Shown piece after piece: positions 6,902 through 23,617 of a stretch of 64,000 nucleotides of DNA (positions are counted from its first letter, which is position 1; each line of letters begins with the position of its first letter). Source of the stretch: Methylosinus sp. LW4 (GTDB lineage Bacteria > Pseudomonadota > Alphaproteobacteria > Rhizobiales > Beijerinckiaceae); the NCBI RefSeq assembly GCF_000379125.1, contig NZ_KB900627.1, positions 532,563-596,562 on the forward strand. The letters run 5' to 3'. The position numbers were made by a program, and so were the translations under genes. The notes under the pieces were generated by a model. It worked only from the letters and a program-made list of their open reading frames with translations. It was not told the origin of the DNA and ran no database searches.

Positions 6902-9112
6902 TCAGAATTCCACTTTCAGCGAGCCGGTAAAGGCCCGCGGCGATTGCGGAGACACATTCCAGCCGCCGCCGAAGACCTGATAGTAGGTTTTATCGAGGAG
7001 ATTGTTGATGTTGAGCTGCAGAGTGAGCCGCGTTCCCTGCCAAGCAAAGGAATAGCGCGTCATGAAATTGACTGTCGCATAGCCGGGCACGAGGAAGGTA
7101 TTGCCGTTGTTGATCGGCGTGTCGCCGCGCGCATAGACGCCGGCGCCGATCGCCAGACCACGCAGGGGCTCATATTGCGGCTCATAGACGCCCCAGACGC
7201 TGCCGCTGAAACGCGGCGCGCCATAAAAGCGATTACCCTTGTTGCCGGTGTCGTCCTTGACGATCCTCGCATCGAGATACGAGAAGCTGCCGATGAATTT
7301 CAGCTCCGGCGTCAATTGTCCCGAAGCGTCGACATCGACGCCGCGATTGCGAACGGCGCCAGTCGGAACCTGGATGCCCAGCGCTGCGGAAATCGGATCG
7401 GAGGCGGGTGACGGGACGTTGGTTTTCTCTATGTCGAACCAAGCGACCGTGCCGGTCAGTCGGCCGTCCCAGAGGCTCGTCTTGACGCCGGCCTCCCATT
7501 GGCGGGCTTCCTCCGGCGGCAGATTGTACTGATAAGGCGAGTCATTCGAAAAAATATTCGCCGTGAAGCCTTCGACATAATCGCCGAACAGGCTCACTTC
7601 GGGAATTGGCTGCCATAATAGGCCGACGCGCGGCTTGATCACCGCCTGCGCCTCGCGCCCGCTCGATATCTGCAGCGAGGGCGCATAAACCGTCTGCGTG
7701 CCGAGCGAGCGCACATTGTCGTAGCGAAAGCCCGCCAGCACATGGAAATTATACGGCAGCTCGATCTGGTCCTGGAGATAGAGTCCGAAAAGGCTCTGAT
7801 GCTTCTCGAGAGAATAGCTCCAATCGGGCGCGCCGAGCAGATAGAGCGGCAGACCGGTGTGAACCGGATTGTAGAGATCGATCGACGGAGCGGAGAAATT
7901 GAACGAACGCGTTCCAGTGCGATGATAGAGCGAGAGATCCGTTCCCGCGAGCACAGTATGGGCGAGGCCGAAGGTCGAGAAATGTCCGGTGACGTCGACG
8001 CTCGTGTAATAATTCTGCTCCTTGCTGTCGGGGTTGCTGATCATGCGCTCGACCGTGCAGGACGTTGCGCCGCAGGCGTTGAACGGGCCGATCGCAAGGA
8101 GGGCCACTCCCTTGTTGTCGATGAAATTGGCGTCGAAACGATGGGTGAGCGACCAGTCGGCGGAGAAGTCATGCGTCCATTTGAAGCCGACACGGATATT
8201 CGTATTGTCGAATTGGCTTCCCGACTCTCCGTAATTGCGTGAGCGCGAGACGGGCGCGATCGCTCTCGGCGTTCCATTCCCGTCGACGAGCAGCGGCGTG
8301 CCTAGCTCGAGCGGGCCGGAGCCGTCGAGATAGCGTAGATAAAGGTCGAAACGTGTGTCGGCGGAAGGCTCCCAGTGAATGCGCGGGGCCAGGAATATAT
8401 GGTGACTATGGACGTATTCGCGGAAAGACTGATCGTTCTCATAGGCGGCGTTGAAGCGATAGAGGATGCTCTTGTCGGCGGTCAGCGGGCCCGTCGCGTC
8501 GAGTGTGGTGCGATAATTGGCAAAAGAGCCGATCTGCTGCTGAATGCTGTAATAGGGAGCGTCGAGCGGCTTTTTGGTGGTGAGCTCGATGATTCCGCCG
8601 GGATTGATGCGACCGTAGAGGATCGACGCCGGCCCTTTGAGCACTTCCACCTGCTCGACGTCGGCGGTCTCTTCTCTTATCGGCGTGTTGTAATTTTCGA
8701 CGCGGACGCCGTCGATGAAATATTTATATGTGTCGAAGCCGCGGATCTGATAGCCGGACTGCAGGCCGCCGATCGATGTCGCATAGACGCTGCTGACGTT
8801 CTGGACCGCGTCGTCGATGGTGATGACTTGCTGATCCTTCAGCACCTGTTGAGGCACGACGACCACATCGACCGGCGTTTTCATGATCGGCGTGTCTGTG
8901 CGCGTCGCGAGGCTCGTATCGGTCCGCGTGTAGGACTGCGGTCCATTCGCCTCTCCTCCGGCGGCCCGCGGGCGAGCGCTGTCGCGCGCCGCCATATCCT
9001 TGCCGATTTCGATCGTCGGCAAGGATTCCTGCGCGAAGGAAAAGGAGGGTGAGGCGAGCGCTATCGTCAGCGCGCCAAAAGAGGCGGAGACCCGTCGTTT
9101 GGAACGTAGCAT
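6902..9112 (-). CDS. TonB-dependent siderophore-type receptor
   Basis: An outer-membrane receptor of about 736 residues. A signal peptide (MLRSKRRVSASFG ... SFAQE) is followed by ESLPTIEIG, a TonB-box-like start. The plug domain carries TPVDVVVVPQQ, IRGFD and VEVLKGPASILYGRINPGG. The 22-strand barrel ends in the terminal phenylalanine of LKVEF. The pattern is that of ferric-siderophore receptors; the ligand is unknown. I chose the ATG at 9112 because AAGGAG lies six bases upstream; an in-frame start at 9175 lacks this and adds an unlikely charged leader. A small DUF2946-like gene lies 78 bp upstream on the same strand, probably in the same transcript. No FecI/FecR-type regulators are nearby. 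Confidence 0.92.
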   Translation of the reverse strand: MLRSKRRVSASFGALTIALASPSFSFAQESLPTIEIGKDMAARDSARPRAAGGEANGPQSYTRTDTSLATRTDTPIMKTPVDVVVVPQQVLKDQQVITIDDAVQNVSSVYATSIGGLQSGYQIRGFDTYKYFIDGVRVENYNTPIREETADVEQVEVLKGPASILYGRINPGGIIELTTKKPLDAPYYSIQQQIGSFANYRTTLDATGPLTADKSILYRFNAAYENDQSFREYVHSHHIFLAPRIHWEPSADTRFDLYLRYLDGSGPLELGTPLLVDGNGTPRAIAPVSRSRNYGESGSQFDNTNIRVGFKWTHDFSADWSLTHRFDANFIDNKGVALLAIGPFNACGATSCTVERMISNPDSKEQNYYTSVDVTGHFSTFGLAHTVLAGTDLSLYHRTGTRSFNFSAPSIDLYNPVHTGLPLYLLGAPDWSYSLEKHQSLFGLYLQDQIELPYNFHVLAGFRYDNVRSLGTQTVYAPSLQISSGREAQAVIKPRVGLLWQPIPEVSLFGDYVEGFTANIFSNDSPYQYNLPPEEARQWEAGVKTSLWDGRLTGTVAWFDIEKTNVPSPASDPISAALGIQVPTGAVRNRGVDVDASGQLTPELKFIGSFSYLDARIVKDDTGNKGNRFYGAPRFSGSVWGVYEPQYEPLRGLAIGAGVYARGDTPINNGNTFLVPGYATVNFMTRYSFAWQGTRLTLQLNINNLLDKTYYQVFGGGWNVSPQSPRAFTGSLKVEF

Positions 9113-9190
9113 GAAATTCTCCTTGAGCGGCCGCTCTGGGCCGTCTCGACCGAAGTAGGGAATACGCAGCCGCAAGGCCGCGCCGTCGGT

Positions 9191-9795: not shown

Positions 9796-10134
9796 CTATA
9801 GGATTGTAGACGCAGGGAGCGGCGCGTAAAGGCGCAAGTATCCGTGATAACTCGCGACCTGCGAGACGTCGTGCTCGTAATATCGAAAGGCGAGGCGCTT
9901 CTCGCGTCGCTCGCGCCCCCAATATTCATTCACGAAATCCGTGCGCGAATAGATCAGGCCTCGAGGTCGAGGAACCTCCACCCTATCGAAGCCGCGCTGG
10001 ATGGCCAGCCGCTTGGCGACGCGAAACGCCTCGCAGTGCGGCTGCGAAGATTCCGGCGTGATCTGGCCCGAGGCGGCTCATGGCGCGACGGGCGGCCATT
10101 CGCGTGAGGCGTCGCTCGAGGCCGCGTCAGACAT
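9796..10134 (-). pseudogene. Small protein ORF interrupted by an in-frame TGA, last gene of the importer operon
   Basis: An ATG at 10134, eleven bases after the stop of the ATPase gene, opens a frame that reads 18 codons, meets a TGA at 10080-10078, and then continues open for 93 codons to 9796. The part after the TGA (for example AFRVAKRLAIQRGFDRVEVP and YYEHDVSQVASYHGYLRLYA) looks like real protein in composition. Read through, it would give 112 residues of an unrecognised, aromatic- and charge-rich protein. It may be a nonsense-mutated gene, a gene with another start downstream of the TGA (a GTG at 9981 has no clear ribosome site), or recoded. Its position as third gene of the ABC importer operon suggests a related job. 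Confidence 0.4.
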
Positions 10135-10145
10135 ACCCGAGCCTC

Positions 10146-10946
10146 TCACTCGGCGCTGAGTGTCTCGTCGGAACGATGACGCGCCGACTTCGCCATGAGG
10201 ATCGGCGTGATCGTCTCGATCTCGCAGCCTTCGTGCTCGAAGGCGATGCGTTTCAGCGGCGCGCGATAGAGCGAGCAGAGATTGTCCTCGGTCAAAATCT
10301 CGCGCGCCCTGCCGCAAAGATAATCGCCTTGCCCGCGCATCAGCAGCGCCTCGTCGGCGACCGCCAGAGCATGATGCGGATGATGCGTCGTCATCACGAT
10401 CGTCAGCCCGTCGTCGCGCGCGAGGGCGGAGATGCGCTCGAGGACGAACGATTGGTTCTCGAGGTCGAGCGCCGATGTCGGTTCGTCGAGAACGAGAATA
10501 TCGGCTTCCGCGACGAGCGCCCGCGCGAAGATGACAAGCTGACGCTGGCCGCCCGAGAGCTCTCCGAAGGACCGCTCCGCGTAGTCGGCCATGCCGAAGC
10601 GATCGAGCGCAGCGAGCGCCGCCGCCTCGTCGGCGCGCGAGGGCTGCGAGAACAAGCCGATCTTTCGGGCGCGCCCCATCAGCGCCATGTCGAGCGCGGT
10701 ATAGTCGAAGGTGACCTCGAAGAGCTGCGGCACGAAAGCGATGCGCCCATTCACCGTGAGGGCGCCCTCGCAGGGCTTCAGCGCGCCGATGAGGAGATGC
10801 AGCAGCGTCGTCTTGCCCCGCCCATTGGGGCCGAGCAGCGCGAAGACGCGGCCGCGCGCGACGCGTAGGTCGCAATGGCGCAGCACCCATTGGTTCGGCC
10901 GATAGAAATAGCCGAGGTCGGTAAGGGCGATCGCCGGCTCACTCAC
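10146..10946 (-). CDS. ABC importer ATP-binding protein (FecE/BtuD type)
   Basis: A 266-residue cytoplasmic ATPase of the iron-chelate/cobalamin importer class. It shows Walker A GPNGRGKTT near residue 38, the Q-loop region FVPQLFEV, signature LSGGQRQ, Walker B ILVLDEPTSALD and the switch histidine in MTTHHPHHAL. All catalytic residues seem intact. Its start overlaps the end of the permease gene by 8 bp, so the two are translationally coupled. The partner binding protein is most likely the one at 16355-17464 in the divergent operon. Substrate class (siderophore, heme, cobalamin or other metal chelate) cannot be resolved from the ATPase. Confidence 0.92.
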   Translation of the reverse strand: MSEPAIALTDLGYFYRPNQWVLRHCDLRVARGRVFALLGPNGRGKTTLLHLLIGALKPCEGALTVNGRIAFVPQLFEVTFDYTALDMALMGRARKIGLFSQPSRADEAAALAALDRFGMADYAERSFGELSGGQRQLVIFARALVAEADILVLDEPTSALDLENQSFVLERISALARDDGLTIVMTTHHPHHALAVADEALLMRGQGDYLCGRAREILTEDNLCSLYRAPLKRIAFEHEGCEIETITPILMAKSARHRSDETLSAE

Positions 10947-11988
10947 GCATCCAGCCTTTCGATTGCGTCTTCCAGAACAGGAAAGCGAAGATCGGCGCGC
11001 CGACCGCGCTGGTCAGCAGACCGATCGGAATCTCCTGCTCGGTCGCGCTGCGCGCGATATCATCCATGGCGAGGAGATAAATGCCGCCGAGACAAGCGGA
11101 GGTGGGCAAGAGGCGTGTATGCTCCGGCCCGACCAGCATGCGCGCGAGATGCGGCACGATGAGCCCGACCCAGCCGACGCCGCCCGAGACGGAGACTTGC
11201 GCGGCGACGAGCAGGGCCACGAGACCCATCAGCCCCCAGCGCAAGGCTTCGACATTGGCGCCGAGCGCCGCAGCGTCGGTCTCGCCGAGCGAGAGCAGAT
11301 TGATGCGCCAGCGCAAAGCGAGCAGCGCCGCGCCCGCAAAGAGCGTGACGCCGGCGACGACCGCCACCTTTTCGTAAGTGGCGCCGGCGAAGCTGCCGAG
11401 CAGCCAATAGACGATGGAGGGCAGCTTCACCAAAGGATCGGCGAGGGTCTGCAACAGGCCGACGAGCGAGCCGCAGAAGCCGCCGACGATGACGCCGGAG
11501 AGCACGAGAGCGAGCGTGCTGGCGCGTCCGGTGAGCCGAGCGAGCGCGAAAGCGGCGGCGAGCGCGCCGAGGCCGGAGCCGAAGGCCAGACCGACGATGG
11601 CGAGCGGCGGCCAGGACAGCATGATGGCGGCGACGCCGCCGAGCGCTGCGCCGGAGGAGACGCCGGCGATCTCCGGCCCGACGAGCGGATTGCGAAAGAC
11701 GCCCTGCATCGCCGCGCCCGACATCGCGAGCCCCATGCCGCAGAGCGTGACGAGCAGAATGCGCGGCATGCGCACGATCTCGACGACGACCCAGGGGGCG
11801 TTCTCGTAATCGCCGACGGCGTTGATCGGGAAGGTGGTGAAGACAATGCGCGCGACATCGGCGAAGGGGACGGGATAGCGGCCCAGAGTCAGCGAAAACA
11901 GCATGAGGAGAGCAATGGCTATCGAGAGAAGGATGGAAACATGATCGGTGCCCGGCTTGTGAAGCATTTCCGACCCGATCCCCATCAT
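10939..11988 (-). CDS. ABC importer permease, FecCD/BtuC family
   Basis: A 349-residue integral membrane protein with about ten helices. It carries FecCD family landmarks: RMPRILLVTLCGMGLAMSG, MQGVFRNPLVGPEIAG, SGVIVGGFCGSL, LGANVEALRWGL and VGWVGLIVPHLARMLVGPEH. It forms the inner-membrane channel of a metal-chelate importer together with the ATPase encoded immediately downstream (8-bp overlap). The start at 11988 is preceded by AGGA; a second ATG follows directly. It is divergent from the NifD-like/TonB/binding-protein operon, and only one FecCD gene is present, so a homodimeric permease as in BtuCD is expected. Confidence 0.93.
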   Translation of the reverse strand: MMGIGSEMLHKPGTDHVSILLSIAIALLMLFSLTLGRYPVPFADVARIVFTTFPINAVGDYENAPWVVVEIVRMPRILLVTLCGMGLAMSGAAMQGVFRNPLVGPEIAGVSSGAALGGVAAIMLSWPPLAIVGLAFGSGLGALAAAFALARLTGRASTLALVLSGVIVGGFCGSLVGLLQTLADPLVKLPSIVYWLLGSFAGATYEKVAVVAGVTLFAGAALLALRWRINLLSLGETDAAALGANVEALRWGLMGLVALLVAAQVSVSGGVGWVGLIVPHLARMLVGPEHTRLLPTSACLGGIYLLAMDDIARSATEQEIPIGLLTSAVGAPIFAFLFWKTQSKGWMRE

Positions 11989-12519
11989 AAGGTCCTGCCT
12001 GCGCGCTGAAATGCGCTGTCTATGTAATTACGTTATATTGATTTTTCGACGAGAAAAAGCCGTTTCTTCGAGCGCCCGTGGCCTCGACATGCGGCGCAGG
12101 CGCGCCGCCCGCTTCGGCGCCCATGGTCGACCGCGCGAATTCGGACAAATAACGGAATAGCGAGATCGAATAGGATCCGAGGTCCAATATCTTTATCTGG
12201 AACGGCTTCGATAAAGAGAGGACGTTTGGGGAGAAGGGATGCCGTTCTGCGTCCGTCGAGAGCAGCCGGGACAGTGGGCGGCGGCGGCCGGCCTCCAATA
12301 TCGATTCGTGCAAATATTGTGTTACATAACGGACAAAATTTCTATTCGTTTCCAGACAAATAAAAAAGCGTTGACTGCTTTCAGCTATTCTGTTGGCTAT
12401 ATGGCGTCGCCCTTTCGTTCGAGCTCGCCGTGCCTCGCAACCCGCTGCTTCCGAAACTGCAGAAAAAGCCGATCCGTTGGCGCATCGGAGCCCTCAAAGG
12501 CACGATCGGAGTCCCTTCG
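11989..12519. promoter_or_regulatory. Divergent promoter region with inverted AT-rich motifs
   Basis: This 531-bp gap separates the importer operon (minus) from the NifD-like operon (plus) and must contain both promoters. CGTTATAT occurs at 12031-12038, next to the palindrome GTAATTAC (12024-12031). The opposite-strand counterpart ACATAACG lies at 12324-12331 inside the near-palindrome GTTACATAAC. Each motif lies on its own side of the gap, as expected for one regulator acting on both operons. CGTTATRT resembles a half of the ModE molybdate-regulator box, but no full box is present. No Fur, RirA or cobalamin-riboswitch core is evident. Confidence 0.4.
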
Positions 12520-13959
12520 ATGGCGGCCGCGGCGCCTCTCGCGACAATCGAAGCGTCCTGCGAGCCCTTTTACAAAAAGGATCCTCGCGGCCGGAAACCA
12601 AAGCCGCCCGCGAAGGCGCGCCCGACTCGGGATCTTCGACGAGATTCGGGTCATTTCGAGACGATCGAAACGCGCACGCCGCCCTCCTATCCGAACGCCG
12701 GAAAAATCGACTTCTGCTCTGGCGGTCTGCTCGGCCATACGGTCGCGAGCTGGGCGTCGGCGCTGGACATGATCCCGCTCGATCACGGCCCGGTCGGCTG
12801 CGGCGCCTATGGGCAGACCATGCGCCTGACGACGCCCGGCCAGCTCCAAGGGGTCGAGAGCTTCAGCGCGCTTCATGCCTGCACCGATCTTCGAAGCGAG
12901 GATATCGGCGACGCCGGTGATCGCCGCCTCGCACGCGCGATCGACGAAATCGCGGAGCTATTTCCACTGGCGCGCGGAACTGTCATCGCGAGCGAAGAGC
13001 CGATGCCCGCGCTCGGCGCCAATATCGCCGGAATTGCGAAAGCCAAAATGGCCGAGCAGCGAAGGCTGATTCTGCCGCTCTGCGGCTACCGATCCTGGGT
13101 GGTCGAGACCGCGGCCACGCTGCGCGCCGCCGAGCTGCTGCATCCGCTCGCGACGAGCAACAGCAAGCGCGTGGTTCTCCCCTATTCCCGGGAGGCGACC
13201 GCGCTCGTCTGGATCGTCAGCAAGCTGCTGATGGAGATCGGCCTCGAGCCTGTTCATGAAATGACGCAATCATCTGCGATCGATCTCGCCCGCGTGAGCG
13301 ATTGCAAATTGGTGATTGGATTCGCGAGCAAGGCGGACGCGCTCGACGAGCGATTGCGCGGCGGCTACGCCGATCTGCTGCATCGATGGTTCGCGACGCC
13401 GATCGTCTGGACATGCTTCGAGAGCCCATCCATGACGACGGCCTCTTTGCGCTCCATCGCGAAGCGCTTCGATCGCCGTGTCGCGCGTCGCGTCGACGAG
13501 GCGATCGTGAAGGGCGAGGCGCTCGTAGCGAAGACCATCGAGCTTTATCGGCCGCGGCTAGAGGGAAAGCTGGTTCTGTTCTTTCGGCCGATGACCGAGG
13601 CGCAGCTCGAGCCCTATCGTCTTCTCGGGCTCCGCATCGGCGACGCATCGGGCTGGACAGGCAAGACCGGCAAGCAGCGCACGCCACGCCTGAAATGCGA
13701 CGGCGACGATCCAGACGAGAGAGCGATCGACTCGTACATATCCGAAGCGAAGCCCGATCTCGTGATGCATTTCGGCAATGGCGAAACGCGCGGCGAATAT
13801 GAGTGGCGCAAGCGCGGTCAGGTCGCGCTTCCCTTCTCGCCTTTCTTCGACCGAAAGGGCAACGCCTTCTGGGGCTATGATGGCTTCGCGTGTCTCGCGG
13901 CCGCTCTCGACCGCGCGATGAATGCGACTTGGCGGGATCTCGTTCAGCCGCCTTGGTGA
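12520..13959 (+). CDS. Orphan nitrogenase component-1-like protein (NifD-like)
   Basis: A 479-residue protein aligning by eye with NifD over its whole length. KIDFCSGG and DHGPVGCGAY correspond to the segments bearing P-cluster ligands Cys62 and Cys88. LARAIDEIAELFPLARG precedes the Cys154 segment, where S-E-C-P reads SEEP. LPLCGYRSW, ESPSMTTASLRSIAKRFD, YRPRLEGK and the end WGYDGFACLAAALDRAMN match NifD blocks in order. The FeMo-cofactor ligands Cys275 and His442 are not found at the equivalent positions. It therefore belongs to oxidoreductase/nitrogenase component 1 but is unlikely to reduce N2. No NifH-like reductase and no NifK/E/N partner is in the window. It heads an operon with a TonB receptor, a binding protein and a radical SAM protein. 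The ATG at 12520 has GGAG eight bases upstream; a GTG at 12430 would add 30 residues but lacks a ribosome site. Confidence 0.9.
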   Translation: MAAAAPLATIEASCEPFYKKDPRGRKPKPPAKARPTRDLRRDSGHFETIETRTPPSYPNAGKIDFCSGGLLGHTVASWASALDMIPLDHGPVGCGAYGQTMRLTTPGQLQGVESFSALHACTDLRSEDIGDAGDRRLARAIDEIAELFPLARGTVIASEEPMPALGANIAGIAKAKMAEQRRLILPLCGYRSWVVETAATLRAAELLHPLATSNSKRVVLPYSREATALVWIVSKLLMEIGLEPVHEMTQSSAIDLARVSDCKLVIGFASKADALDERLRGGYADLLHRWFATPIVWTCFESPSMTTASLRSIAKRFDRRVARRVDEAIVKGEALVAKTIELYRPRLEGKLVLFFRPMTEAQLEPYRLLGLRIGDASGWTGKTGKQRTPRLKCDGDDPDERAIDSYISEAKPDLVMHFGNGETRGEYEWRKRGQVALPFSPFFDRKGNAFWGYDGFACLAAALDRAMNATWRDLVQPPW

Positions 13960-14117
13960 CGTTTCTGCGTCGATATTTTCAGCCATGACCGGAGCTTTGA
14001 AAGTCGCACCTTCGCGGCGCGGGGACGCGCGTCCGTGCGGCTCTCATCGACGAGCTCCGTGTCACGGCTAGCGAACTCAGTCCGGCCGCCGAGCGGCAAC
14101 CACGGGGGTGCTGAAGG

Positions 14118-16343
14118 ATGAAGACCACGACACATTCTGCGAGCTGCATGATCGCTCGCGCTCTGCTGGCCAGCGCTTCGGTCGTCGCCATCATGGGCTC
14201 GTTCGGCCGAGCCAGCGCGCAGGAAGCGACGACGCTTCCTCCAATCGATATCGCCGCCGCGCGCGCCGCCAGCGATCACCGAGGCGGTGGCGCGAATGGC
14301 GGCGCCGCGGCCGGCTATCGTTTCGACGCGACATCGACGACCGGCCCTTGGGGCGAAAGGGCGTTACAGGATACGCCTTATTCGGTCTATTCGGTGAGCA
14401 CTCCTTATATAGAAAACCGCGTCTTCTCGACGACGGACGAGGTCTTCCGCGTCAATCCGCTCACCCAGCTCAATATGGGGCAGGGGCGCGGCTACGGCTC
14501 GGCGATCTTTATTCGTGGCGTCAAGCAGCAGAGCGGCTTCAGCCAGATCGACGGCCTCAACATGTCGGGCGTCACCGATCTCGTGCTGTCCTTGGAGGAC
14601 AAGGAGCGCGTCGATGTTCTCTCCGGCCTCTCCGGCTTCCTCTATGGGCCGGCGCATGTCGGCGGACTGGTCAATTTCGTCACCAAGCGGCCGACGCCGA
14701 CGCCATTCTCGAGCGTGACTTTCGGCAATTACGGCGGCTCGCAACCTTTCGTGCATGTCGATCTCGGCGGCCCGTTCGAGAAGGGAAGCGACTTCGGATA
14801 TAGGCTCAACTTCGTGAAGAGCAGCGGCGAAACGGCGATCGACGACAATTTCGTCGACAGATGGCTCGTCAGCGGCGCGCTCGATTGGCGGCCGCTGCAG
14901 GAGCTGCTGTTTCAGATCAATTATTCGCATCAGCATATCTATGAGAAAGGCACGCTCGCCGATTGGGGATCGTTCAACGGAACCTTTCCGCATTTCAGCG
15001 CGAGCATTCTCGATCCCGCGAAAAATTATGGCCAGCCATGGACGTTCAACAAGAACGACATGGACGTGCTCGGAGCCAATGTCACCTATGACGTGACGCG
15101 CAATGTGAAATTTCGCGCCGCCTATCAATATGTCGACATCGAGAGCGAGAACCTCTATGCGGGCGATAATATCGCATATAGCAATGGTTCATACTCCTAT
15201 TCCCTCGCGTCTCTTTATAATGCGCCGCATGTGCAGCGAAATCAGGCATGGTACGCCTTTACCGACTATGACCTCGACCTTCTCCCGATAAAAGCCAAGA
15301 CGACATTCGGGCTCTATGGATCCAGCTACTCGCTACGCCAGCATCAGGACAACACGCTGTTCAAGGGCCTCGGGACTTTCCCCGTTGCCGCTGATCCCGT
15401 CTATGTCACGCGTCCGATCTTCACGAATGGCGCGCAACCGTATTTCCGACAGCAGCAGCTGGATCAAACGAATTGGATCATCGGCGAGGACATCGCTTTC
15501 AACGATCAGTGGTCGCTGCTCGCCGGCGCGAGCCTCGCCAATATAAAGGCGACGAATTTCAATACCAATGGAACGGTGTCGAGCTATTTCGACAAGACCA
15601 GGCTCACGCCGACCGCCTCCCTGATCTATAAGCCGCTGCCCTGGCTGACAGGCTATGGAACCTACATCCAATCGCTCCAAAATGGCGGAACCGCCTCGAC
15701 CAGCTTCTCCTCATTGCCAGTGACCAACGCCAGTCAGGCGCTCAGTCCGACGACCAGCGAGCAGGTCGAGATCGGCGCGAAAGCCAATGTCTCGCAAATT
15801 CTTCTGACTGCCGCTCTGTTCCAGATCGACAAAGCCAACACCTTTTACAAAGCGAATGGCGCCAGCTACACATTCACCAATGATGGGCGGCAGCTTCATC
15901 GCGGTCTCGAAATGACGGCGACGGGCAAGATATTCGATGATCTCACCGTCACCGGCGGCTTCACGCTGCTCGATGCGAAGATCACCCAGACCAACACATT
16001 CTATCTTCTCGGCCAGCCTCCCGCAGGCTCGGCGAAAAACATGGGGAAGCTCTATGTCGAATATCGCCTGCCCTTCGTGCCGGGGCTGACATTGACAGGC
16101 GGCTTCAACTATGTCGGCCCACAGGTCGGCAATGTCTTCGCGCCGACGAATGTGCGCGCGATCGAATGGCTGCCCTCTTACGTGACCGGCGACATCGGGC
16201 TACGCTACGAGACCCGCATTTTCGATACGGAGACGATCTGGCGCGTCGACATGACCAATATCGCCAACGCATCCTATTGGCAGCAGACTGAAATGCTGGG
16301 AGCGCCGCGCACCGTCGCTTTTTCGGCGACCGCGAAATTCTAA
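14118..16343 (+). CDS. TonB-dependent outer-membrane receptor
   Basis: A 741-residue receptor with a signal peptide (ALLASASVVAIMGSFGRASA|QE), a plug domain (IFIRGVKQQSGFSQIDGLNM, VDVLSGLSGFLYGPAHVGG) and a barrel ending in the terminal phenylalanine of SATAKF. A glycine-rich insert (GGGANGGAAAG) separates the TonB-box region from the plug. It sits between the NifD-like gene (158 bp upstream) and the binding-protein gene (11 bp downstream), so it is probably the outer-membrane gate of the same import system. The ligand is unknown; sequence alone does not distinguish siderophore, cobalamin-like or other metal complexes. The start ATG follows a G-rich stretch (GGGGG, then GAAGG). Confidence 0.92.
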   Translation: MKTTTHSASCMIARALLASASVVAIMGSFGRASAQEATTLPPIDIAAARAASDHRGGGANGGAAAGYRFDATSTTGPWGERALQDTPYSVYSVSTPYIENRVFSTTDEVFRVNPLTQLNMGQGRGYGSAIFIRGVKQQSGFSQIDGLNMSGVTDLVLSLEDKERVDVLSGLSGFLYGPAHVGGLVNFVTKRPTPTPFSSVTFGNYGGSQPFVHVDLGGPFEKGSDFGYRLNFVKSSGETAIDDNFVDRWLVSGALDWRPLQELLFQINYSHQHIYEKGTLADWGSFNGTFPHFSASILDPAKNYGQPWTFNKNDMDVLGANVTYDVTRNVKFRAAYQYVDIESENLYAGDNIAYSNGSYSYSLASLYNAPHVQRNQAWYAFTDYDLDLLPIKAKTTFGLYGSSYSLRQHQDNTLFKGLGTFPVAADPVYVTRPIFTNGAQPYFRQQQLDQTNWIIGEDIAFNDQWSLLAGASLANIKATNFNTNGTVSSYFDKTRLTPTASLIYKPLPWLTGYGTYIQSLQNGGTASTSFSSLPVTNASQALSPTTSEQVEIGAKANVSQILLTAALFQIDKANTFYKANGASYTFTNDGRQLHRGLEMTATGKIFDDLTVTGGFTLLDAKITQTNTFYLLGQPPAGSAKNMGKLYVEYRLPFVPGLTLTGGFNYVGPQVGNVFAPTNVRAIEWLPSYVTGDIGLRYETRIFDTETIWRVDMTNIANASYWQQTEMLGAPRTVAFSATAKF

Positions 16344-16354
16344 AGGGACGGAGA

Positions 16355-17464
16355 TTGCGTTCTTTCACGACTGTGAGCCTCGCTTTCCTGCCGATCCTGG
16401 GCCTGGGATTGGCGGCGGCAGGCCCGCATGTCGCATCGCCTTCGCCACATAGATCGATCAAGGATATGAGAGGCCGCGACGTCACCGCCGCGGTCCCGGC
16501 GCGCCACGCCCTCATCTTTGCGCCAGTGGCCTCGATCTATCTCACGGTAGACGGAGATCCCGGACATATCGCCGCTACCAGCAGTTCACGTTCCAGCGGA
16601 AACGAATTGAGCCGCGGGTTGCTGCGTCGCGTGTTTCCCTCGGTGCGCGACCTCGCGCCGGCGCCGACGTCAGGAGGCGACACCGTCGTGCCCGGCGACC
16701 CGGAAGCTATTCTGATGACGCGCAGCGACGCGATCCTGTCATGGTCCTGGTTCGCCGCGCCCTTGCTGAGAATCGGCGCGCCATTGGCGCAGCTCGATAG
16801 CCGAGCGTCTGGCGATGTGTCGCACAGCGTGGAACAGCTCTGGCGCTTGATCGGCGCCCTCGCCGATAGGCGAGAGCGTGTGGATTTCCTGATTCGTCGT
16901 CACCAGGCGGAGCTCGGCGCTTTTTCGAAGGAGCGCCCCGCCGCGCCAATTCGTCGCAAGGTCGCTTATCTCTTCCAGATCGACCCGCTGATCATGGCTT
17001 TCGGCGGAACGGGCATCGACGCCGACCTCGATCAGGTGAATGCGGAAAATGTCGCAGCCTCGCTCCATTCCCCTCATATGACGATCGAGGAGCTGATCGC
17101 GCGCGCGCCGGATGTCATCATAATTTCCGGCTATCCGAAAGACGACGCCGTTCATCGCTTGCTCGACAATGCGGCGTTACGATGCGTGCCCGCGGTCCGA
17201 TCACGACGAGTCTATCGCGAGCCGCGTGGTGGAATGCGCATGGAAGGATTGGTCGAGGAGCCGATCATGCTGCAATGGATGTCCGAAATCATCTATCCAG
17301 AGACGGAGCGACGATTTCGCAGTAAGCTGCGGCAGGCTTATGCGGATGTCTATGGCTTCAGCCTCACGGACGATGCGATCGACGAGACCCTGGTTTTGCG
17401 AGAGAATGCGGACTCTGCGGATTACGCCCGCTTCCTCGCTTCGACCGACACGGAGCGACGCTGA
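16355..17464 (+). CDS. Periplasmic class III substrate-binding protein (FepB/BtuF type)
   Basis: About 369 residues, starting with TTG at 16355 (GGGACGGAGA just upstream). A signal sequence (FTTVSLAFLPILGLGLAAA) precedes SIKDMRGRDVTAAVP, the typical first strand of metal-chelate binding proteins. Later parts include RSDAILSWSW, the long interdomain helix region (SVEQLWRLIGALADRRERVD), GGTGIDADLDQVNAENVA and ARAPDVIIISGYPKD, all in the expected order. It should deliver substrate to the FecCD/FecE-type importer encoded divergently at 10.1-12.0 kb, which has no binding protein of its own. The C-terminal 60 residues after the usual fold (YADVYGFSL onward) are a little longer than in BtuF. Confidence 0.85.
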   Translation: MRSFTTVSLAFLPILGLGLAAAGPHVASPSPHRSIKDMRGRDVTAAVPARHALIFAPVASIYLTVDGDPGHIAATSSSRSSGNELSRGLLRRVFPSVRDLAPAPTSGGDTVVPGDPEAILMTRSDAILSWSWFAAPLLRIGAPLAQLDSRASGDVSHSVEQLWRLIGALADRRERVDFLIRRHQAELGAFSKERPAAPIRRKVAYLFQIDPLIMAFGGTGIDADLDQVNAENVAASLHSPHMTIEELIARAPDVIIISGYPKDDAVHRLLDNAALRCVPAVRSRRVYREPRGGMRMEGLVEEPIMLQWMSEIIYPETERRFRSKLRQAYADVYGFSLTDDAIDETLVLRENADSADYARFLASTDTERR

Positions 17465-17467
17465 GCC

Positions 17468-18487
17468 ATGCCGCGAGAAATCATCGTCACCGGCGTTCAT
17501 CTTCACGCCAACGCCGCGCCATGCTTCCATCATTGCCGCTATTGCCAGCTGAAGAGCTACCGGCTGCGACCAGCGCCTATCGAACGTTTTGTCGCCCTGG
17601 TCGAACGCTTCATCGAATGGCGCAATGCCGGACACCAAGATTTCGAGATCGCGCCTTGGTATGGGAACAGCCATGATTATTCATTGGCGACCACCAAAGC
17701 GCTTCGCGAGCTGGAGAAGAAGCTCGGCTGGACAAGCCATGTCGTTCTGCTCGGCGGCGTCGCGCATCGATCGCGACAAGAGATGAAGCAATGGCTGCTG
17801 GAGCGGCGTGATCTCGGGATCGACACAGTGGTCGCGACGTTCAGCGGCCATGGCGCTCGCCACGATCATTGGAACAATATGGCCGGCAACTACCAATTCC
17901 AGCTCGACGCCCTTCACTTGGCGGCGGAGATCGGCATGAAGCTGCAACAGCGTATTTTGTTGATCCGCGACAGTGTTCCGAGCTTGGACGAGCTGCTGGA
18001 CGATCTGGACCGCGGTCCAGCGACGTCTCGCGAACGCTGGGCCGTCCCGCTTTTCTATTCCGGCGTGGCGCGTGGTCTCGAGGAGCAGCGTCTGACCGAG
18101 GTGGAGATCGATTCGCTTCCGGCGCGCGTCAAGGATTGTCTTCGTGATGATAGGCCCAATTGGCGATCCGAAAAAAATTGGATCGAGCATGTCCGCCAGT
18201 CGCCCGATGACGAAGCGGAAGCGATGGCCATCAGCCTCCCGCTCGATGAGCAAAGTCTCGATTGGGCGGATGCGCGCTCCTGCGATCAAATCATCACAGA
18301 ACTCATAGCGCGCTGGCGTGCGGCCCATCTCGCCGCGCCCTCTCGCAAGGAATTATGCGAAGGCTATGGCGACGTCGCCAATGATAGGCTGTATTTCAAC
18401 GTGCAGCAGATGGAAAAAGCTTGGTTCGATCGCTACAAGAAGGACAACATCTGTCGGTTCGATATCAGTGCCACAAAATTTTCGTGA
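17468..18487 (+). CDS. Radical SAM protein
   Basis: A 339-residue protein whose start ATG lies 3 bp after the stop of the binding-protein gene. The N-terminus carries C-F-H-H-C-R-Y-C, the CX3CX2C motif (Cys19, 23, 26) that binds the [4Fe-4S] cluster and S-adenosylmethionine. A partial TIM barrel follows (FEIAPWYGNSHDY, VVLLGGVAHRS, GIDTVVATFSGHGARHDHWN). No C-terminal SPASM-type cysteine cluster and no B12-binding domain is visible; only three other cysteines are scattered beyond the motif. I cannot place it in a named subfamily. Co-transcription with a NifD-like protein and metal-chelate import genes suggests modification, cleavage or assembly of an imported or nascent cofactor. It is not NifB: it lacks the NifX-like tail and NifB-type extra motifs. 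Confidence 0.88.
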   Translation: MPREIIVTGVHLHANAAPCFHHCRYCQLKSYRLRPAPIERFVALVERFIEWRNAGHQDFEIAPWYGNSHDYSLATTKALRELEKKLGWTSHVVLLGGVAHRSRQEMKQWLLERRDLGIDTVVATFSGHGARHDHWNNMAGNYQFQLDALHLAAEIGMKLQQRILLIRDSVPSLDELLDDLDRGPATSRERWAVPLFYSGVARGLEEQRLTEVEIDSLPARVKDCLRDDRPNWRSEKNWIEHVRQSPDDEAEAMAISLPLDEQSLDWADARSCDQIITELIARWRAAHLAAPSRKELCEGYGDVANDRLYFNVQQMEKAWFDRYKKDNICRFDISATKFS

Positions 18488-18592: not shown

Positions 18593-19357
18593 TCAGCCCG
18601 ACGGATCGTTACGCAGCTTCGACTCGACGACCGCGGCGATGTCGCGGAGTCGCGGATCGGCGCGTCGTCGCGGACGCGCGACGTCGATCGCGACCGAGGC
18701 GCGAACCTCGCCCGGCTTGCCGCCGAGCGCGATCACGCGATCAGCGAGATAGACCGCTTCGTCGATATCATGCGTCACGAAGAGAATCGTCTTGCCCGTC
18801 TCGCGCCAGAGCATAAGCAGATCATCCTGCAAGCGTTGCCGCGTCGGCGTGTCGAGCGCGGAGAACGGCTCGTCCATCAGCAGCAGGTCGGGCCGCACTG
18901 CGAGCGCGCGCGCCAGAGCGACGCGCTGCCTCTGTCCGCCGGAGAGCTGATGCGGAAAGCGTTCGCCATAGCCCTCGAGACCGACGCCGCGCAATGCCTC
19001 CAGCGCGCGGATGTGGCGCTCCTCTTTCGAGAGCTTTGTCTTCTCGAGGCCGAGCGCCACATTGGCCTCGACGCGTCGCCAGGGAAGCAATCGCGCATCC
19101 TGGAACACCAGCGCCATCGCGCACTCGGATCGCGAGTCGAAACGCAGCACGCCGGCCGAAGGTTCCGCGAGGCCGATGAGCACGCGCAGCAAGGTCGATT
19201 TTCCGACGCCGGAGGCGCCGAGAATCGCGATGAATTCCCCGCGCGCGATGGAAAGATCGAGCCGCTCCAGCACAGCGACATGAGCGCCGTCATGGTCATA
19301 GCCGAGCGCCAGCTCCTCGATCTCGATGAGCGGCGGCGGAGGCGTCACGCCTTCCAT
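18593..19357 (-). CDS. ABC importer ATPase, SsuB/TauB type
   Basis: A 254-residue ATPase with Walker A GASGVGKST, Q-loop VFQDARLLPWR, signature LSGGQRQRVALARAL, Walker B LLLMDEPFSALD and switch VTHDIDEAVYLADRV. The D-x-R-L-L-P-W Q-loop is typical of the nitrate/sulfonate/taurine importer group. Its ATG at 19357 overlaps the permease 3' end by 13 bp, indicating coupled translation. It is the last gene of the operon hydrolase-permease-ATPase and energises the permease at 19345-20088. Confidence 0.92.
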   Translation of the reverse strand: MEGVTPPPPLIEIEELALGYDHDGAHVAVLERLDLSIARGEFIAILGASGVGKSTLLRVLIGLAEPSAGVLRFDSRSECAMALVFQDARLLPWRRVEANVALGLEKTKLSKEERHIRALEALRGVGLEGYGERFPHQLSGGQRQRVALARALAVRPDLLLMDEPFSALDTPTRQRLQDDLLMLWRETGKTILFVTHDIDEAVYLADRVIALGGKPGEVRASVAIDVARPRRRADPRLRDIAAVVESKLRNDPSG

Positions 19358-20088
19358 GTGAGAAGCCTCGATTGTGCGAAGATGAAGGCCATGTCGATCA
19401 GGCCATAGAGCGCCGCCATGGTCAGCATGTAGACGACGACGATATCGGTGGCGAGCAGGCTGGATGCCTGATTCATGCGCTGCCCAAGGCCGGCGACCCC
19501 GAACAATTCGGCCGCGACCACCGCCATCCACGCCTGGCCGAGCGAGGTGCGCACGCCGACGAGAATGCCAGGCAGGCTCGCCGGAAACTGCACCTTCACC
19601 AGTTTCTCCCAGCTGGTTCTGAAACCGAATGCGGCCGCCACCTCGACGAGATCGCGATCGACATTGCGAATGGCCCCGTGAGCCGAGAAATAGACGATCC
19701 AAAACACGCCGACGGCGATGATGAACACCGCCGCCTTCTCCTCGACGCCGAACCAGAGAATAGCGAAAGGAATCCAGGCGAGTCCGGGGATGGGACGAAG
19801 AATGCGCGTGATCCAGGCAGTCGCCCATTCGAGCGGCGGATGCGCGCCGGTCGCCACGCCCGCCGCAGCGCCGAGCGTCACGCCGACGAGCAGCCCGGCG
19901 AGATAATGCGAGAGGCTCGCGCCGACGCAGGCGAGCCAGACGCCATTCTGCAGCTCGCGCCAGAAGGCGCCGGGCAATTGGCTGGGCACGGGCAGAAGCG
20001 CGCGCGCTCCCGGCGTGAACAATGGCGCCAGCTCCCATGCGCCGAGGAATAGCGCGAGACCAAGCAAGGAGGCGAGGCGCTGTTTCAC
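19345..20088 (-). CDS. ABC importer permease, SsuC/TauC type
   Basis: A 247-residue inner-membrane permease with about six helices. The EAA loop appears as EVAAAFGFRTSWEKLVKVQF followed by PASLPGILVGVRTSLGQAW, the hallmark of sulfonate/nitrate-type BPD permeases. The start is a GTG at 20088 that overlaps the TGA of the upstream hydrolase gene (GTGA), so translation is coupled. Its likely binding protein is encoded divergently at 22595. Substrates of the family include aliphatic sulfonates, taurine, nitriles and thiamine precursors; none can be singled out here. Confidence 0.92.
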   Translation of the reverse strand: MKQRLASLLGLALFLGAWELAPLFTPGARALLPVPSQLPGAFWRELQNGVWLACVGASLSHYLAGLLVGVTLGAAAGVATGAHPPLEWATAWITRILRPIPGLAWIPFAILWFGVEEKAAVFIIAVGVFWIVYFSAHGAIRNVDRDLVEVAAAFGFRTSWEKLVKVQFPASLPGILVGVRTSLGQAWMAVVAAELFGVAGLGQRMNQASSLLATDIVVVYMLTMAALYGLIDMAFIFAQSRLLTWKA

Positions 20089-22502
20089 TTCGCCTCTCCT
20101 GCGTCCTGTCCATCGCCGAAGGTGATGAACAGCGCCGACGACCACACTTTCGCGTCGTCGCGCTGACGGCCGAATAGATAGATCGGGCGGAATCCGAACG
20201 GGCCGTTGCGCGGCTCGAGCGTGAATCGTCCCGCGATGTCGCGTGGAAGCGGCGCGTCTGTGAGACGCTCGAAAGCAACGAACATTTCGGCCCCGCCGAG
20301 CTCCCATCGCAACTCGCCCTTCTCGAGCAGCTCGCTTCCCGTCGCCTCGAAGCGAAACTCCGGCGCATGGACGAAAGGCGCGGGAAAACGCGGATCGCCG
20401 ACCTTCACGAAACCGCCGATCGTTCCCTCGATGATAAAGCGCGCGGCGGAAAGATCATCGATCTCGAGCTCCAACGCGTCGGAGTCGCCATAGGTCTCCG
20501 AGCGAAAAGCGATGTCGGTCGCTCCCGAGCGCCAAGCGCTCTCCTCGTCATGCTCGAAGCCGACGCTCGCAAAGCTGCGCACGACGGCGCCCTGCACGCG
20601 CAGACGGCCGTTCCAGCTCGCCCAGCGATAGCGATCCTTTATTCGCGCGCCGCCCCAGCGCAGCCGCACACGCTTGCGCGAGAAGCCGAGCTCGGCATGG
20701 AGATTCCGGCGCCAGAGCAGCCCCTCATGGTCGAAGGCGGCGATCTCGTCGAAGCCGACGTCGCCGAGGAAGCGATAGTCGATCTCGGCCGGCCCTCGAT
20801 GCGCGAAGGCGTCGCCTTGGAGGCGATCGCCGCACCGGACGATGAGCGCGACATGTTCCCCGGTCGTCGCGAAACTATGACGCGCGCGCAAGGCGCGGCC
20901 GATCGTGACACGGTCGAGGCTTTCGGCGAAAACGCCGGTCAGCCCTCCGCGCACGCCGAACACTTGCACGCCGGGCGCGCCGCCGCCCGGCCGACCGCGA
21001 TGCTCGTCGCTGTTCGCGCAGACGCCGAGCCGATAGCCGCGGGCGATCACGTCATGATAGAGCCAGGGGAAATGCCCCCACGCCGAGGCGATCTCGACGA
21101 GCCGCTCGAGCTCGGGGTGGTGCCAATCGGCGATATAGCGCCGCCCGCCGACATGTGGCACGACGAGATGGGTCTCCGGCGAATGGCCGTAAGCGTCCCA
21201 CAGCTCGTTCACCGGCCAGCGGCCGAGCTCGACCTTCGGAGACTTCATGTCCTCGTTCCAGGACAGGGTGCGATTGTGCCGCCCTTGTGCGTCATATGGA
21301 AAGTCTGGCTCGTCGTCGCCGAGGAAGATCACCTTGTGATCGCCTCCCGCCGTCGAGCTTCCGCACCATTCCTGCACCGGATAGGTCACAAAGCGTCCTG
21401 GCGCGTCGAGCGCGTTCACGGCGGCGACGCCGTCATGCCAATTGGCGTCGGTGATCTGAAAATCATTCGCCGTGTAGCCGAACACATCGACGCCGCCGAC
21501 ATCGCGCGCGAAGGCGGCGTTGTAGGAGGGGCTGTTGGTGCCGACCGTGTCATGCGCATGAACATGCAGATCGGCGTAGAAGCCGCGCGGCGCCGGCGCG
21601 TCCGCGAAGACCGTGAGATAGGCCCGAGCCGTGGGAATCGCGTGCGCCTCCGGCTCGGCGGCCAGCGTCACGTCTCCCCGATCGGTAGGAACATCCTCTA
21701 TTGCGACGCTCGCCCAGCCTTTTTCGGGAAAGACGAGCTCGCGGGACGCGATCGTGTCGGCGCCCGCGAGAATCGAGAGATGGATGCGGCCGGGAAAGTC
21801 GCTGACGATATTACCCCAGCGATCGAGCGCCGAGAGCCGGAATGGCGCGCGAGCGCCCGGGCGCGCGAAACGCGGGCCGACGAGCGACAGCCGCGCCGGC
21901 GCGCCGGCGACGACGCGCAGCGAGACATCCCCCGGCACCGCGACGTAACGTGACGTGCCGAGCGGGTCGACATAGGCGCGAAAGCGAAAATCATCGTCGA
22001 CGAAGGTCTGGACCCGCGTGCCGGGTCCGCCGGCCCGTCGATCGCCCAACCGGATGACGATATGGTCGCCCATGTTGAGATAGCCGTCGATCACATCGAC
22101 GATCAGGGCCTTCTGATAAGGCCGCTCATGTCCCTTTTGATCGAAGCGGACCGAAAGATGCTGCACGCTCGCCGGTGATTGTCCGGGAGCCAGCGGGCCG
22201 GCCTGATATTCGACGCTGAGATAATCGGCGCCTTTCGGGTCGACGGTCTGGAACAGCGCCCAGTCCGAATAAAATTTGAACGTGGCCTTGAAGGTCGCGC
22301 CGTCGGCGACGCCGCTCGCGCCGACTTCATAGTCCAGAAGGATTTCCTGCCAGGATCCGGCCTCCGCTTCGTCGAGGCTGCAAGTGAGCTGGCCGGCGAA
22401 GGGAGCTTGCTTCATCTTCTCATAGAGCCCTTCCGGCGCGACCGGCGCCGAGGGTCGCGCTCCCGATGGCCGGGTCCGCGCGCTATCCTTCTCATCCGAC
22501 AA
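20085..22502 (-). CDS. DUF3604/PHP-type metal-dependent hydrolase
   Basis: An 805-residue protein without a clear signal peptide. The first 330 residues are beta-rich and Ig-like, then ADLHVHAHDTVGTNS begins a PHP-type metallohydrolase core. Further metal-ligand blocks are TANDFQITDANW, EWCGSSTAGGDHKVIF, VVPHVGGRRY, SAWGHFPWLYHD and CANSDEHRGRPG. This is the arrangement in DUF3604 proteins, related to the CehA/McbA phosphoesterase-like group. Substrates of the family are poorly known. The gene opens the operon of an SsuBC-type importer (4-bp overlap) and is divergent from its SsuA-like binding protein, so it probably acts on the imported compound or on a precursor. The cellular location is unclear. 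Confidence 0.8.
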   Translation of the reverse strand: MSDEKDSARTRPSGARPSAPVAPEGLYEKMKQAPFAGQLTCSLDEAEAGSWQEILLDYEVGASGVADGATFKATFKFYSDWALFQTVDPKGADYLSVEYQAGPLAPGQSPASVQHLSVRFDQKGHERPYQKALIVDVIDGYLNMGDHIVIRLGDRRAGGPGTRVQTFVDDDFRFRAYVDPLGTSRYVAVPGDVSLRVVAGAPARLSLVGPRFARPGARAPFRLSALDRWGNIVSDFPGRIHLSILAGADTIASRELVFPEKGWASVAIEDVPTDRGDVTLAAEPEAHAIPTARAYLTVFADAPAPRGFYADLHVHAHDTVGTNSPSYNAAFARDVGGVDVFGYTANDFQITDANWHDGVAAVNALDAPGRFVTYPVQEWCGSSTAGGDHKVIFLGDDEPDFPYDAQGRHNRTLSWNEDMKSPKVELGRWPVNELWDAYGHSPETHLVVPHVGGRRYIADWHHPELERLVEIASAWGHFPWLYHDVIARGYRLGVCANSDEHRGRPGGGAPGVQVFGVRGGLTGVFAESLDRVTIGRALRARHSFATTGEHVALIVRCGDRLQGDAFAHRGPAEIDYRFLGDVGFDEIAAFDHEGLLWRRNLHAELGFSRKRVRLRWGGARIKDRYRWASWNGRLRVQGAVVRSFASVGFEHDEESAWRSGATDIAFRSETYGDSDALELEIDDLSAARFIIEGTIGGFVKVGDPRFPAPFVHAPEFRFEATGSELLEKGELRWELGGAEMFVAFERLTDAPLPRDIAGRFTLEPRNGPFGFRPIYLFGRQRDDAKVWSSALFITFGDGQDAGEAK

Positions 22503-22594
22503 TCCGGCCCTCCTTCTGTTCTATTTCGACCATAGACTAAATCATCATATTGACGCAAACTCACCCCGTCACAATTCGAGACGGAGGAAAATCA

Positions 22595-23617
22595 GTGTCG
22601 AAGAAGCTCGTCGCGATGGCCATGGCTTTCGCCTTCCACGCCAGTTGCGCCGCGGCCGAAACAGTGACCGCGCGCGTCGGGGTCATCCCGGTCATCGGCG
22701 CGGCCCCCCTGTTCGTGGCGGAGAAGGAAGGCTGGCTCCACGAGAGCGGACTCGATCTGCAGACCAAGGTCTTCGAGAGCGGCCCCAATATCGTTCAGGC
22801 GGCCGCGAGCGGCGGCATCGACATTTACATCGGGGGCGTCGCGCCGGCCGCCGCGGGACGGGCGAAAGGCATCGATCTGCGCGTCGTGGCGGCCCTCGCC
22901 GTCGACGAGAATGTGCTCGTCGGCGGCCCCAAGCTCAAAGCGTTCTTCAAAAAAGGGGTCGCGCCAGCGGCGGCTTTCAAGGCCTTCCGAGTCGCCAACG
23001 GCCGGCCGGCCAGAATCGCCACCCAGCCGCCCGGCTCGGTGCCGGCGGCCAATTTACAATATTGGCTGCGCGAGGCGACGCATACCGATCCGTCCGACGT
23101 CGAGATCGTCTCCATCGGCATAGACGCGACGCAGCAGGCTCTGCTCGCGAACGCCGTGGAAGCCGCGACGGTCCGCGAGCCGACGCTGACGATCGTGCAA
23201 AAGGCCAATCCCGAGATCACGCTGATCGCCGGAGGCTCGGAGCTGTTTCCCGGTCAGCCGGGCACCGTTGCGGCGATCTCGAAGGATTTTCTCGAGAAGC
23301 ACCCGCAGCAGACGCGAGCGCTGGTTGACGGGCTCGTCCGCGCCGTGGAGGAACTGCAGAAAAATCCCGATCGCGCCGCGCCCCATGTCGAAGCGGCCTT
23401 GTCCAAGGGAATCGTCGACGGCGCGACCATTCGAAAATCGCTGTCGTCGCCGGCCGTCCATTTCGTGGTCGATCCGAAATCGATCATAGAATCGACCAAA
23501 GCGCTTCTCGCCTATCAGGTGAAGCTCGGCGTCGCCGACAAGGCGCCGAGCGTCGACGGTCTCTTCGATTCGAGCTTCTTCGACAAGGTGACGAGCGAGA
23601 AATCCTCGAAGAAGTGA
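22595..23617 (+). CDS. SsuA/NMT1-like periplasmic substrate-binding protein
   Basis: About 340 residues starting with GTG at 22595, eight bases after GGAGG. The signal peptide is MAMAFAFHASCAAAE. The mature part follows the SsuA/TauA/NMT1 pattern: GVIPVIGAAPLFVAEKEGWL, QAAASGGIDIYIGGVAPAAA, ARIATQPPGSVPAANLQYWL and AATVREPTLTIV. It is divergent from the hydrolase-permease-ATPase operon, with under 100 bp between starts, so a shared regulatory region is likely. It should feed the SsuBC-type importer. An in-frame TTG at 22550 would add an implausible 15-residue leader. Confidence 0.88.
   Translation: MSKKLVAMAMAFAFHASCAAAETVTARVGVIPVIGAAPLFVAEKEGWLHESGLDLQTKVFESGPNIVQAAASGGIDIYIGGVAPAAAGRAKGIDLRVVAALAVDENVLVGGPKLKAFFKKGVAPAAAFKAFRVANGRPARIATQPPGSVPAANLQYWLREATHTDPSDVEIVSIGIDATQQALLANAVEAATVREPTLTIVQKANPEITLIAGGSELFPGQPGTVAAISKDFLEKHPQQTRALVDGLVRAVEELQKNPDRAAPHVEAALSKGIVDGATIRKSLSSPAVHFVVDPKSIIESTKALLAYQVKLGVADKAPSVDGLFDSSFFDKVTSEKSSKK

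Follow-up and report, generated by a model that had tools for sequence, protein, structure and literature searches.

A recurrent import module with a NifD-like and a radical SAM protein in Methylosinus sp. LW4 and related methanotrophs: a candidate importer of chelated molybdenum or vanadium

The window (the whole stretch of 64,000 nt that was analysed) is part of the 842,783 bp contig C2 from Methylosinus sp. LW4, the genome of which has 4.8 Mb in three contigs. It carries two divergent operons which encode a putative metal importer together with two cytosolic proteins. The FecCD permease and its ATP-binding cassette (ABC) ATPase are encoded on the minus strand; the NifD-like protein, a TonB-dependent receptor, a class III binding protein, and a radical SAM (S-adenosylmethionine) protein are encoded on the plus strand. 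These six genes had been described in a sequence-only reading of this DNA, and all are present by Pfam/NCBIfam matches:

10146..10946, minus strand: ABC ATPase of a FecCD-type importer (PF00005, 86.5 bits); homologues in related modules
10939..11988, minus strand: FecCD permease (PF01032, 266.4 bits); 92% identical to the M. parvus counterpart
12430..13959, plus strand: NifD-like protein, 509 amino acids (aa) (PF00148, 55.2 bits); NPLLPK peptide and AT-hook-like YKKDPRGRKPK at the N-terminus, followed by the nitrogenase component 1 domain
14118..16343, plus strand: TonB-dependent receptor of the siderophore-receptor type (TIGR01783, 222.6 bits, slightly below the cut-off of 223.5)
16355..17464, plus strand: class III periplasmic binding protein (PF01497, 31.4 bits); a profile built from 13 rows finds class III binding proteins in the PDB
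17468..18487, plus strand: radical SAM protein; CxxxCxxC motif and radical SAM fold in the model

Receptor, binding protein, permease, and ATPase are the set of a TonB-dependent class III importer. As had been proposed, the operons complement each other: within the window, no binding protein gene lies beside the permease/ATPase pair, and the NifD-like operon has no permease gene. The proposed lack of a NifH-like partner at the locus also holds, with no PF00142 (NifH) match in the window and neither nifK nor nifH in the NifD-like operon. The single full-length NifH of the host is encoded upstream of nifDKEN on contig C1 (3.905-3.912 Mb). The sequence-only reading had named a complete Nif set elsewhere in the genome that pairs with the NifD-like protein as speaking against it; such a set exists, its NifH being no more than a possible partner. 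Vanadium (V) or iron-only nitrogenases were not found in the host genome, as it has only five PF00148 profile matches, four of which are nifDKEN.

That the two operons represent one recurring import unit, and that the NifD-like and radical SAM genes accompany the importer in other genomes, had been predicted, and both were found; with this recurrence, the arrangement is not a chance one. Homologues were compared for 13 modules, which lie in 12 stretches (the window, that of M. parvus, and 10 others, one of which holds two modules). TonB receptor and binding protein occur in 13/13 modules, the NifD-like protein in 11/13, the radical SAM protein in 10/13, and both of the latter in 8/13. The NifD-like gene is lacking from the G089 module and the second G174 module, the radical SAM gene from those of Methyloferula a, the metagenome-assembled genome (MAG) G050, and M. 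parvus. Wherever present (11/11), the NifD-like gene precedes all other module genes of its strand. A tonB gene is found near seven modules, two of which also have exbB and exbD homologues. The radical SAM gene slot of M. parvus is occupied by a 337-aa protein without Pfam match (L059:17223-18236), which has no similarity to the radical SAM protein (E 0.71). An apparently frameshifted FecCD gene is located between the two G174 modules (L051:7120-7988).

Among 199 genomes of the family, seven encode a NifD-like protein (the family proper being defined by scores over 300 bits) and seven a radical SAM family member. Six have both, G089 has only the radical SAM protein, and MAG G050 only the NifD-like protein. 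In total, 41 genomes pass 1e-60 in the NifD-like search, 34 of them with at most 251 bits, which is the level of true NifD; seven proteins from these 34 genomes grouped with NifD when placed in a tree. At the cut-off applied, true NifD occurs in 40/199 genomes, among them all seven with the radical SAM protein. In wider draws (397 genomes from the order and 398 from the phylum, which overlap the family set and hold few close relatives), the radical SAM profile has a match in G000 only; a wider scan of genome contigs yielded one locus. Genome G146, with plasmids matching M. trichosporium OB3b, is from the same genus as the host, and the OB3b genome carries three NifD-like copies. The six locus tags of two OB3b module copies occur in none of the papers searched for them. 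On plasmid pOB3b1 (locus L057), the radical SAM gene (L057:14040-15059) is annotated only in part, as hypothetical (14355-15059), beside an antisense open reading frame (ORF), and the annotated NifD-like gene is about 110 residues short.

The proteins of the module do not diversify at the same pace. Mean pairwise identity is 0.74 for FecCD and 0.70 for the ATPase, 0.50 for the NifD-like protein, 0.41 for the radical SAM protein, 0.40 for the receptor, and 0.29 for the binding protein. FecCD identity is 71-100% among eight of the nine modules compared, and 46-50% between these eight and the ninth, Methyloferula a. Pairwise distances (M. parvus excluded, pairs being non-independent and linked genes having a common history) correlate among binding protein, radical SAM protein, NifD-like protein, and receptor with r 0.73-0.91 (binding protein and radical SAM protein 0.91; NifD-like protein with either of these 0.82). 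Correlations are lower with FecCD (0.27-0.50; 0.27 for both the NifD-like and the radical SAM protein) and with the ATPase (0.27-0.57). The simplest reading is that the four correlated proteins track the ligand and that the inner-membrane step stays constant. The permease has its best PDB match to HI1471 (250.7 bits) and the ATPase to HI1470. Kinship to MolB of the MolABC-type molybdate importers was considered and dropped since the permease match is uninformative: three of three other FecCD proteins from the host, used as permease controls, also match HI1471 best (262.4, 235.3, and 189.3 bits), as does FecCD from Methyloferula a.

The NifD-like protein exceeds the PF00148 cut-off and has the component 1 fold, which places it in the nitrogenase component 1 superfamily. 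It most likely starts with GTG at 12430 because the conserved N-terminal peptide of the family begins there; a database copy (P0001) is shorter, with 479 aa. The family consists of 33 database clusters, beyond which scores drop to NifD (from 209 to 134 bits and, in a second search, from 328 to 257). With TIGR01282 (NifD, MoFe alpha chain) it scores 125.7 bits vs. a cut-off of 653.55. In a tree of 48 rows, 18 NifD-like rows are split from 29 NifD rows with a branch support of 100/100, on a long stem and with uncertain deep branching. An alignment of 35 rows was used for residue counts (ungapped rows; NifD numbering except for family-specific residues). Cys88 and Arg96 are present in 33/33 rows. 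The FeMo-cofactor ligands are gone (Cys275 0/32, His442 0/33), as are, with one exception, the P-cluster residues Cys154 (1/33) and Cys62 (0/26, some rows including the window having a Cys a few residues away); His195 corresponds to a gap in 34/35 rows. The family has conserved cysteines of its own, Cys292 (30/33) and Cys329 (31/33). In the predicted model (mean predicted local distance difference test score, pLDDT, 71.3; good mainly from about residue 150), best matches are MoFe alpha chains, and confidence is low around Cys124, the equivalent of NifD Cys88. The protein thus differs from NifD by its separate clade, the lost cofactor ligands and two lost P-cluster cysteines, the lack of a NifK partner, and an extra N-terminal tail. 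It seems to be a nitrogenase relative that has departed from nitrogenase catalysis.

The tail carries an AT-hook-like motif ([x]GR[KP]PK) in 22/22 rows with a long N-terminus (out of 35 rows) and an NP[FL]LP-type peptide in 20/22. Among 253 automatic ORFs of at least 200 aa from the loci, nine have the AT-hook-like motif, all of them NifD-like. It is missing from P0030 and Methyloferula b, and MAG G050 has a weaker form (SGRKPK).

The radical SAM protein scores 23.3 bits with PF04055, below the cut-off of 29.5. The CxxxCxxC motif is present in 22/23 database rows (the remaining row lacks the N-terminus) and in 10/10 module copies, and the model (pLDDT 93.3) has the radical SAM barrel fold. Motif and predicted fold outweigh the sub-threshold score, and we assign the protein to the radical SAM superfamily. 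That it modifies the N-terminus of the NifD-like protein is unlikely because each gene is found without the other.

The promoter of the NifD-like operon contains a series of elements:

12308..12331, plus strand: ModE-box-like palindrome, 12/18 matches to the printed ModE consensus
12320..12335, plus strand: TGT-N10-ACA operator-like palindrome, 51 nt ahead of TTGAC
12357..12367, plus strand: AT-rich tract CAAATAAAAAA; CAAATAAA is present in 8/11 NifD-like promoters
12371..12375, plus strand: TTGAC, putative -35 element (promoter alignment)
12395..12403, plus strand: GGCTATATG, ModE half-site-like and close to the expected -10 element (promoter alignment)

When 11 NifD-like promoters were aligned by anchoring on TTGAC, TGT-N10-ACA was found at -49 to -51 in 10/11 (chance about 0.0055 per promoter, from letter shuffles of a 38-base stretch) and [CG]G[TC]TAT[AG]T at +16 to +26 in 10/11. 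The CAAATAAA tract is missing from Methyloferula b, which has no hook, and from MAG G050, which has the weaker one; in Methyloferula a, the tract is present as a variant. Across seven genomes, the composite of TGT-N10-ACA and TTGAC occurs at nine NifD-like promoters (seven with the tract) and at 13 other places (none with the tract), and it is absent from the two modules without NifD-like gene. TGT-N10-ACA is also the pattern of the NifA upstream activating sequence. A NifA/sigma-54 promoter was considered and rejected: with the patterns tried, no -24/-12 element was found on the coding strand between TGT-N10-ACA and the gene start. Loose -24/-12 matches occur elsewhere in L050, L051, L052, and L055.

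A search for candidate ModE boxes with the consensus printed in PMC2700814 (spacer 6 or 7) gave at least 12/18 matches in 10/12 module promoters vs. 3/85 control stretches. At least 15/18 matches are reached by 4/12 module promoters; none of the 85 controls reaches 14. Three of the 12 module stretches are longer than the 165 bases of the controls, and without them the count is 8/9 at the threshold of 12; the 12 include two pairs of near-duplicates (window/pOB3b1 and G078/G174). With dinucleotide shuffles and a looser ModE consensus, set partly from these same promoters, 11/12 have p<=0.043. On the FecCD side, 3/8 promoters have at least 13 matches, that of the window having 11. At the second G174 module, the intergenic sequence next to the ModE-like gene has 13 matches, and modA on pOB3b1 has 12 (in 340 bases).

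Several modules have nitrogenase or molybdenum (Mo) genes as neighbours. On pOB3b1, modC, modB, and modA converge tail to tail on the radical SAM gene. In G174, the gene for a 151-aa protein whose match to the ModE repressor domain scores 66.4 bits (below the cut-off of 98.5) is situated between the two modules. The G089 module adjoins vnfK, vnfD, nifH, nifE, nifN, nifB, and genes for NifX-like, NifU-like, and NifA-type proteins, the latter an activator. VnfD is over its cut-off (990.4 vs. 823.1 bits) and VnfK slightly below (861.7 vs. 873.95); NifH, NifE, NifN, and NifB exceed theirs, and the NifX-like and NifA-type proteins (the latter with 478.8 vs. 528.85 bits) do not. In G089, vnfG could not be confirmed, as the 137-aa ORF between vnfD and vnfK has no NCBIfam match. 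The two modules without NifD-like gene each adjoin a regulator gene (ModE-like in G174, NifA-type in G089), and in M. parvus a gene for a sigma-54-type activator lies upstream of the module.

Other neighbours were also recorded. Near the G089 vnf genes is a PhnC-like ABC ATPase (L134:10190-11014; 206 bits, below the cut-off of 266.1), which could be part of a vanadate importer. In G089, a ModE-like string was seen by eye about 340 nt upstream of the modA ORF start, beyond the scored stretch. The neighbourhood of the pOB3b1 module (L057:1826-6220) includes an encapsulin gene of family 2A and the gene for its cysteine desulfurase cargo, as well as genes for an Rrf2-type regulator and a cupin protein. 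Genome G076, inferred to be Methylocella silvestris, has two extra NifH-like and four extra component 1 genes, possibly BchLNB and BchXYZ (C1:2209542-2229935). In the window, a separate siderophore receptor gene (6902-9175; TIGR01783, 325.7 bits) adjoins the permease operon, and an SsuABC/TauABC-like transporter and a DUF3604 protein are encoded downstream of the module (18593-23617).

The sequence-only reading knew of no described system with this composition, which is too strong a statement. According to PMC9542535, three TonB receptor genes of Azotobacter vinelandii depend on VnfA1 and share operons with genes for ABC components; they are strongly activated only in the absence of Mo and V, and one of these operons ends in a NifD-like gene (Avin_39870), which is reported not to influence growth on N2 with Mo. 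Compared by this description, TonB receptor, ABC importer, and NifD-like gene are found together in both systems. They differ in that no radical SAM gene is mentioned for A. vinelandii, that the NifD-like gene is last there and first here, and that the operon there is under VnfA1 and sigma-54 control, while here no -24/-12 element was found from TGT-N10-ACA to the gene start. In the NifD-like searches, no row above the NifD scores is named Azotobacter, most rows bearing no name. This precedent supports the metal reading and narrows the novelty. In Rhodobacter capsulatus, also a diazotroph, the Mo uptake genes mopA-modABC and morAB have Mo-boxes and are repressed by ModE-like proteins; these are molybdate ABC transporters, and a TonB receptor is not mentioned in the passages of PMC6925177 consulted. 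Permease, ATPase, class III binding protein, and TonB receptor are shared with FecCD/BtuCD-type importers, to which the cytosolic NifD-like and radical SAM proteins are added here.

We consider it fairly likely, from gene content and promoter sequences, that the system is an importer for a Mo (or V) chelate which serves nitrogenase. This assignment is made because of the ModE-like palindromes, the ModE-like gene, the modABC and vnf neighbours, and the A. vinelandii precedent. From these we infer a TonB-dependent import of chelated metal, most likely molybdenum and possibly vanadium, for nitrogenase and other Mo enzymes. A ModE-type repressor would keep the module down when the metal is plentiful. 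The receptor would carry the metal-chelate across the outer membrane, and the binding protein would pass it to the FecCD/ATPase pair for transfer to the cytosol. There, the chelate may be bound by the NifD-like protein, which presumably cannot accommodate a P-cluster or FeMo-cofactor in the manner known from nitrogenase. The radical SAM enzyme may modify the ligand and thereby free the metal. This chelate-handling role of the two proteins is a tentative proposal, about which we have more doubt than confidence. For the explanation as a whole (import module, ModE control, and cytosolic roles), weighted towards the system level, belief and doubt are nearly balanced, with a slight excess of doubt. 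Of the substrates offered by the sequence-only reading, import of a metal-chelate is thus retained, and nothing was found that points to a corrinoid or tetrapyrrole.

Several points weigh against a Mo or V importer with these components. The NifD-like protein is missing from 2/13 modules and the radical SAM protein from 3/13, so that neither is obligatory, and the vnf-linked G089 module is one of those without the NifD-like protein. G076 (11/18) and G009 copy a (10) match the ModE consensus poorly, and the best site of the window and of pOB3b1 (12) is about 85 nt farther upstream than the position of most others. Upstream stretches of six chromosomal modA genes (6/6) score only 9-11; because the consensus did not recover these, the ModE inference is weakened. 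Many of the control stretches are no real promoters, since the ORFs behind them were called automatically and one or more of these calls are spurious. Finally, the siderophore-receptor similarity would also be compatible with iron.

An ordinary siderophore importer with two acquired accessory genes, its nitrogenase neighbours reflecting the iron demand of that enzyme, would fit the siderophore families to which receptor and binding protein belong; moreover, OB3b plasmid pOB3b3, which has one module, also carries a putative siderophore cluster according to PMC12811070. The ModE-like boxes, the ModE-like gene, and the modABC and vnf neighbours argue against iron (Fur/Irr boxes were not sought), and we regard this explanation as unlikely while giving it real weight. 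Improbable, in our view, is a reductase in which the NifD-like protein pairs with NifH from the nif cluster and reduces the imported compound, with Cys88 and either Cys292 or Cys329 holding a simple cluster. The near-invariance of these three cysteines and the full-length NifH in 7/7 genomes searched would permit it. CfbD and the dark-operative protochlorophyllide oxidoreductase work with NifH-like partners of their own. A partner gene of this kind beside the NifD-like gene would be expected of a CfbD/BchN-type reductase; no PF00142 match was found in the NifD-like modules of the six searched genomes having them, nor is a NifH-like gene annotated in the M. parvus stretch. In addition, P-cluster Cys62 and Cys154 are lost, and the low-confidence model around Cys124 gives no cysteine geometry.

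Scavenging of a corrinoid, tetrapyrrole, or metal cofactor would recall the haem-uptake systems of HutW and HmuW, in which a radical SAM enzyme encoded within a metal-complex uptake locus acts on haem; a link to haem was not found here. In favour of this reading, the best NCBIfam match of the permease is BtuC (229.5 bits, below the cut-off of 461). Against it, the receptor matches models of B12 receptors weakly (37.2 bits vs. a cut-off of 599.7). No Rfam family is over threshold within the window, so there is no cobalamin riboswitch there. Together with the Mo/V neighbours, this makes cofactor scavenging very improbable.

The NifD-like protein might also be a transcription factor derived from nitrogenase, its component 1 domain sensing the chelate or the nitrogenase-metal state and its AT-hook-like arm binding the AT-rich tract in the promoter of its own gene. 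This is hinted at by the hook in all long rows, the first-gene position, the promoter with TGT-N10-ACA and tract, the tract/hook pattern across modules, and the regulator genes beside the two modules without NifD-like gene. Against it, a sigma-54-type activator gene accompanies the NifD-like gene in M. parvus, and the hook/tract correlation comes from few modules; we consider such a sensor rather unlikely.

The literature found makes no mention of a radical SAM partner, of a module that recurs across methanotrophs, of its ModE-like boxes, of an AT-hook-like tail, or of co-diversification, and these features are possibly new. To our knowledge, it is not settled how chelated Mo or V passes the outer membrane in diazotrophs. 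If the module is a Mo or V importer, it would provide candidate receptors for such chelates in cultured methanotrophs, for example M. trichosporium OB3b, which has a Mo-containing formate dehydrogenase besides nitrogenase (PMC3615186). It would also offer a context in which to look for the ligand of a nitrogenase relative.

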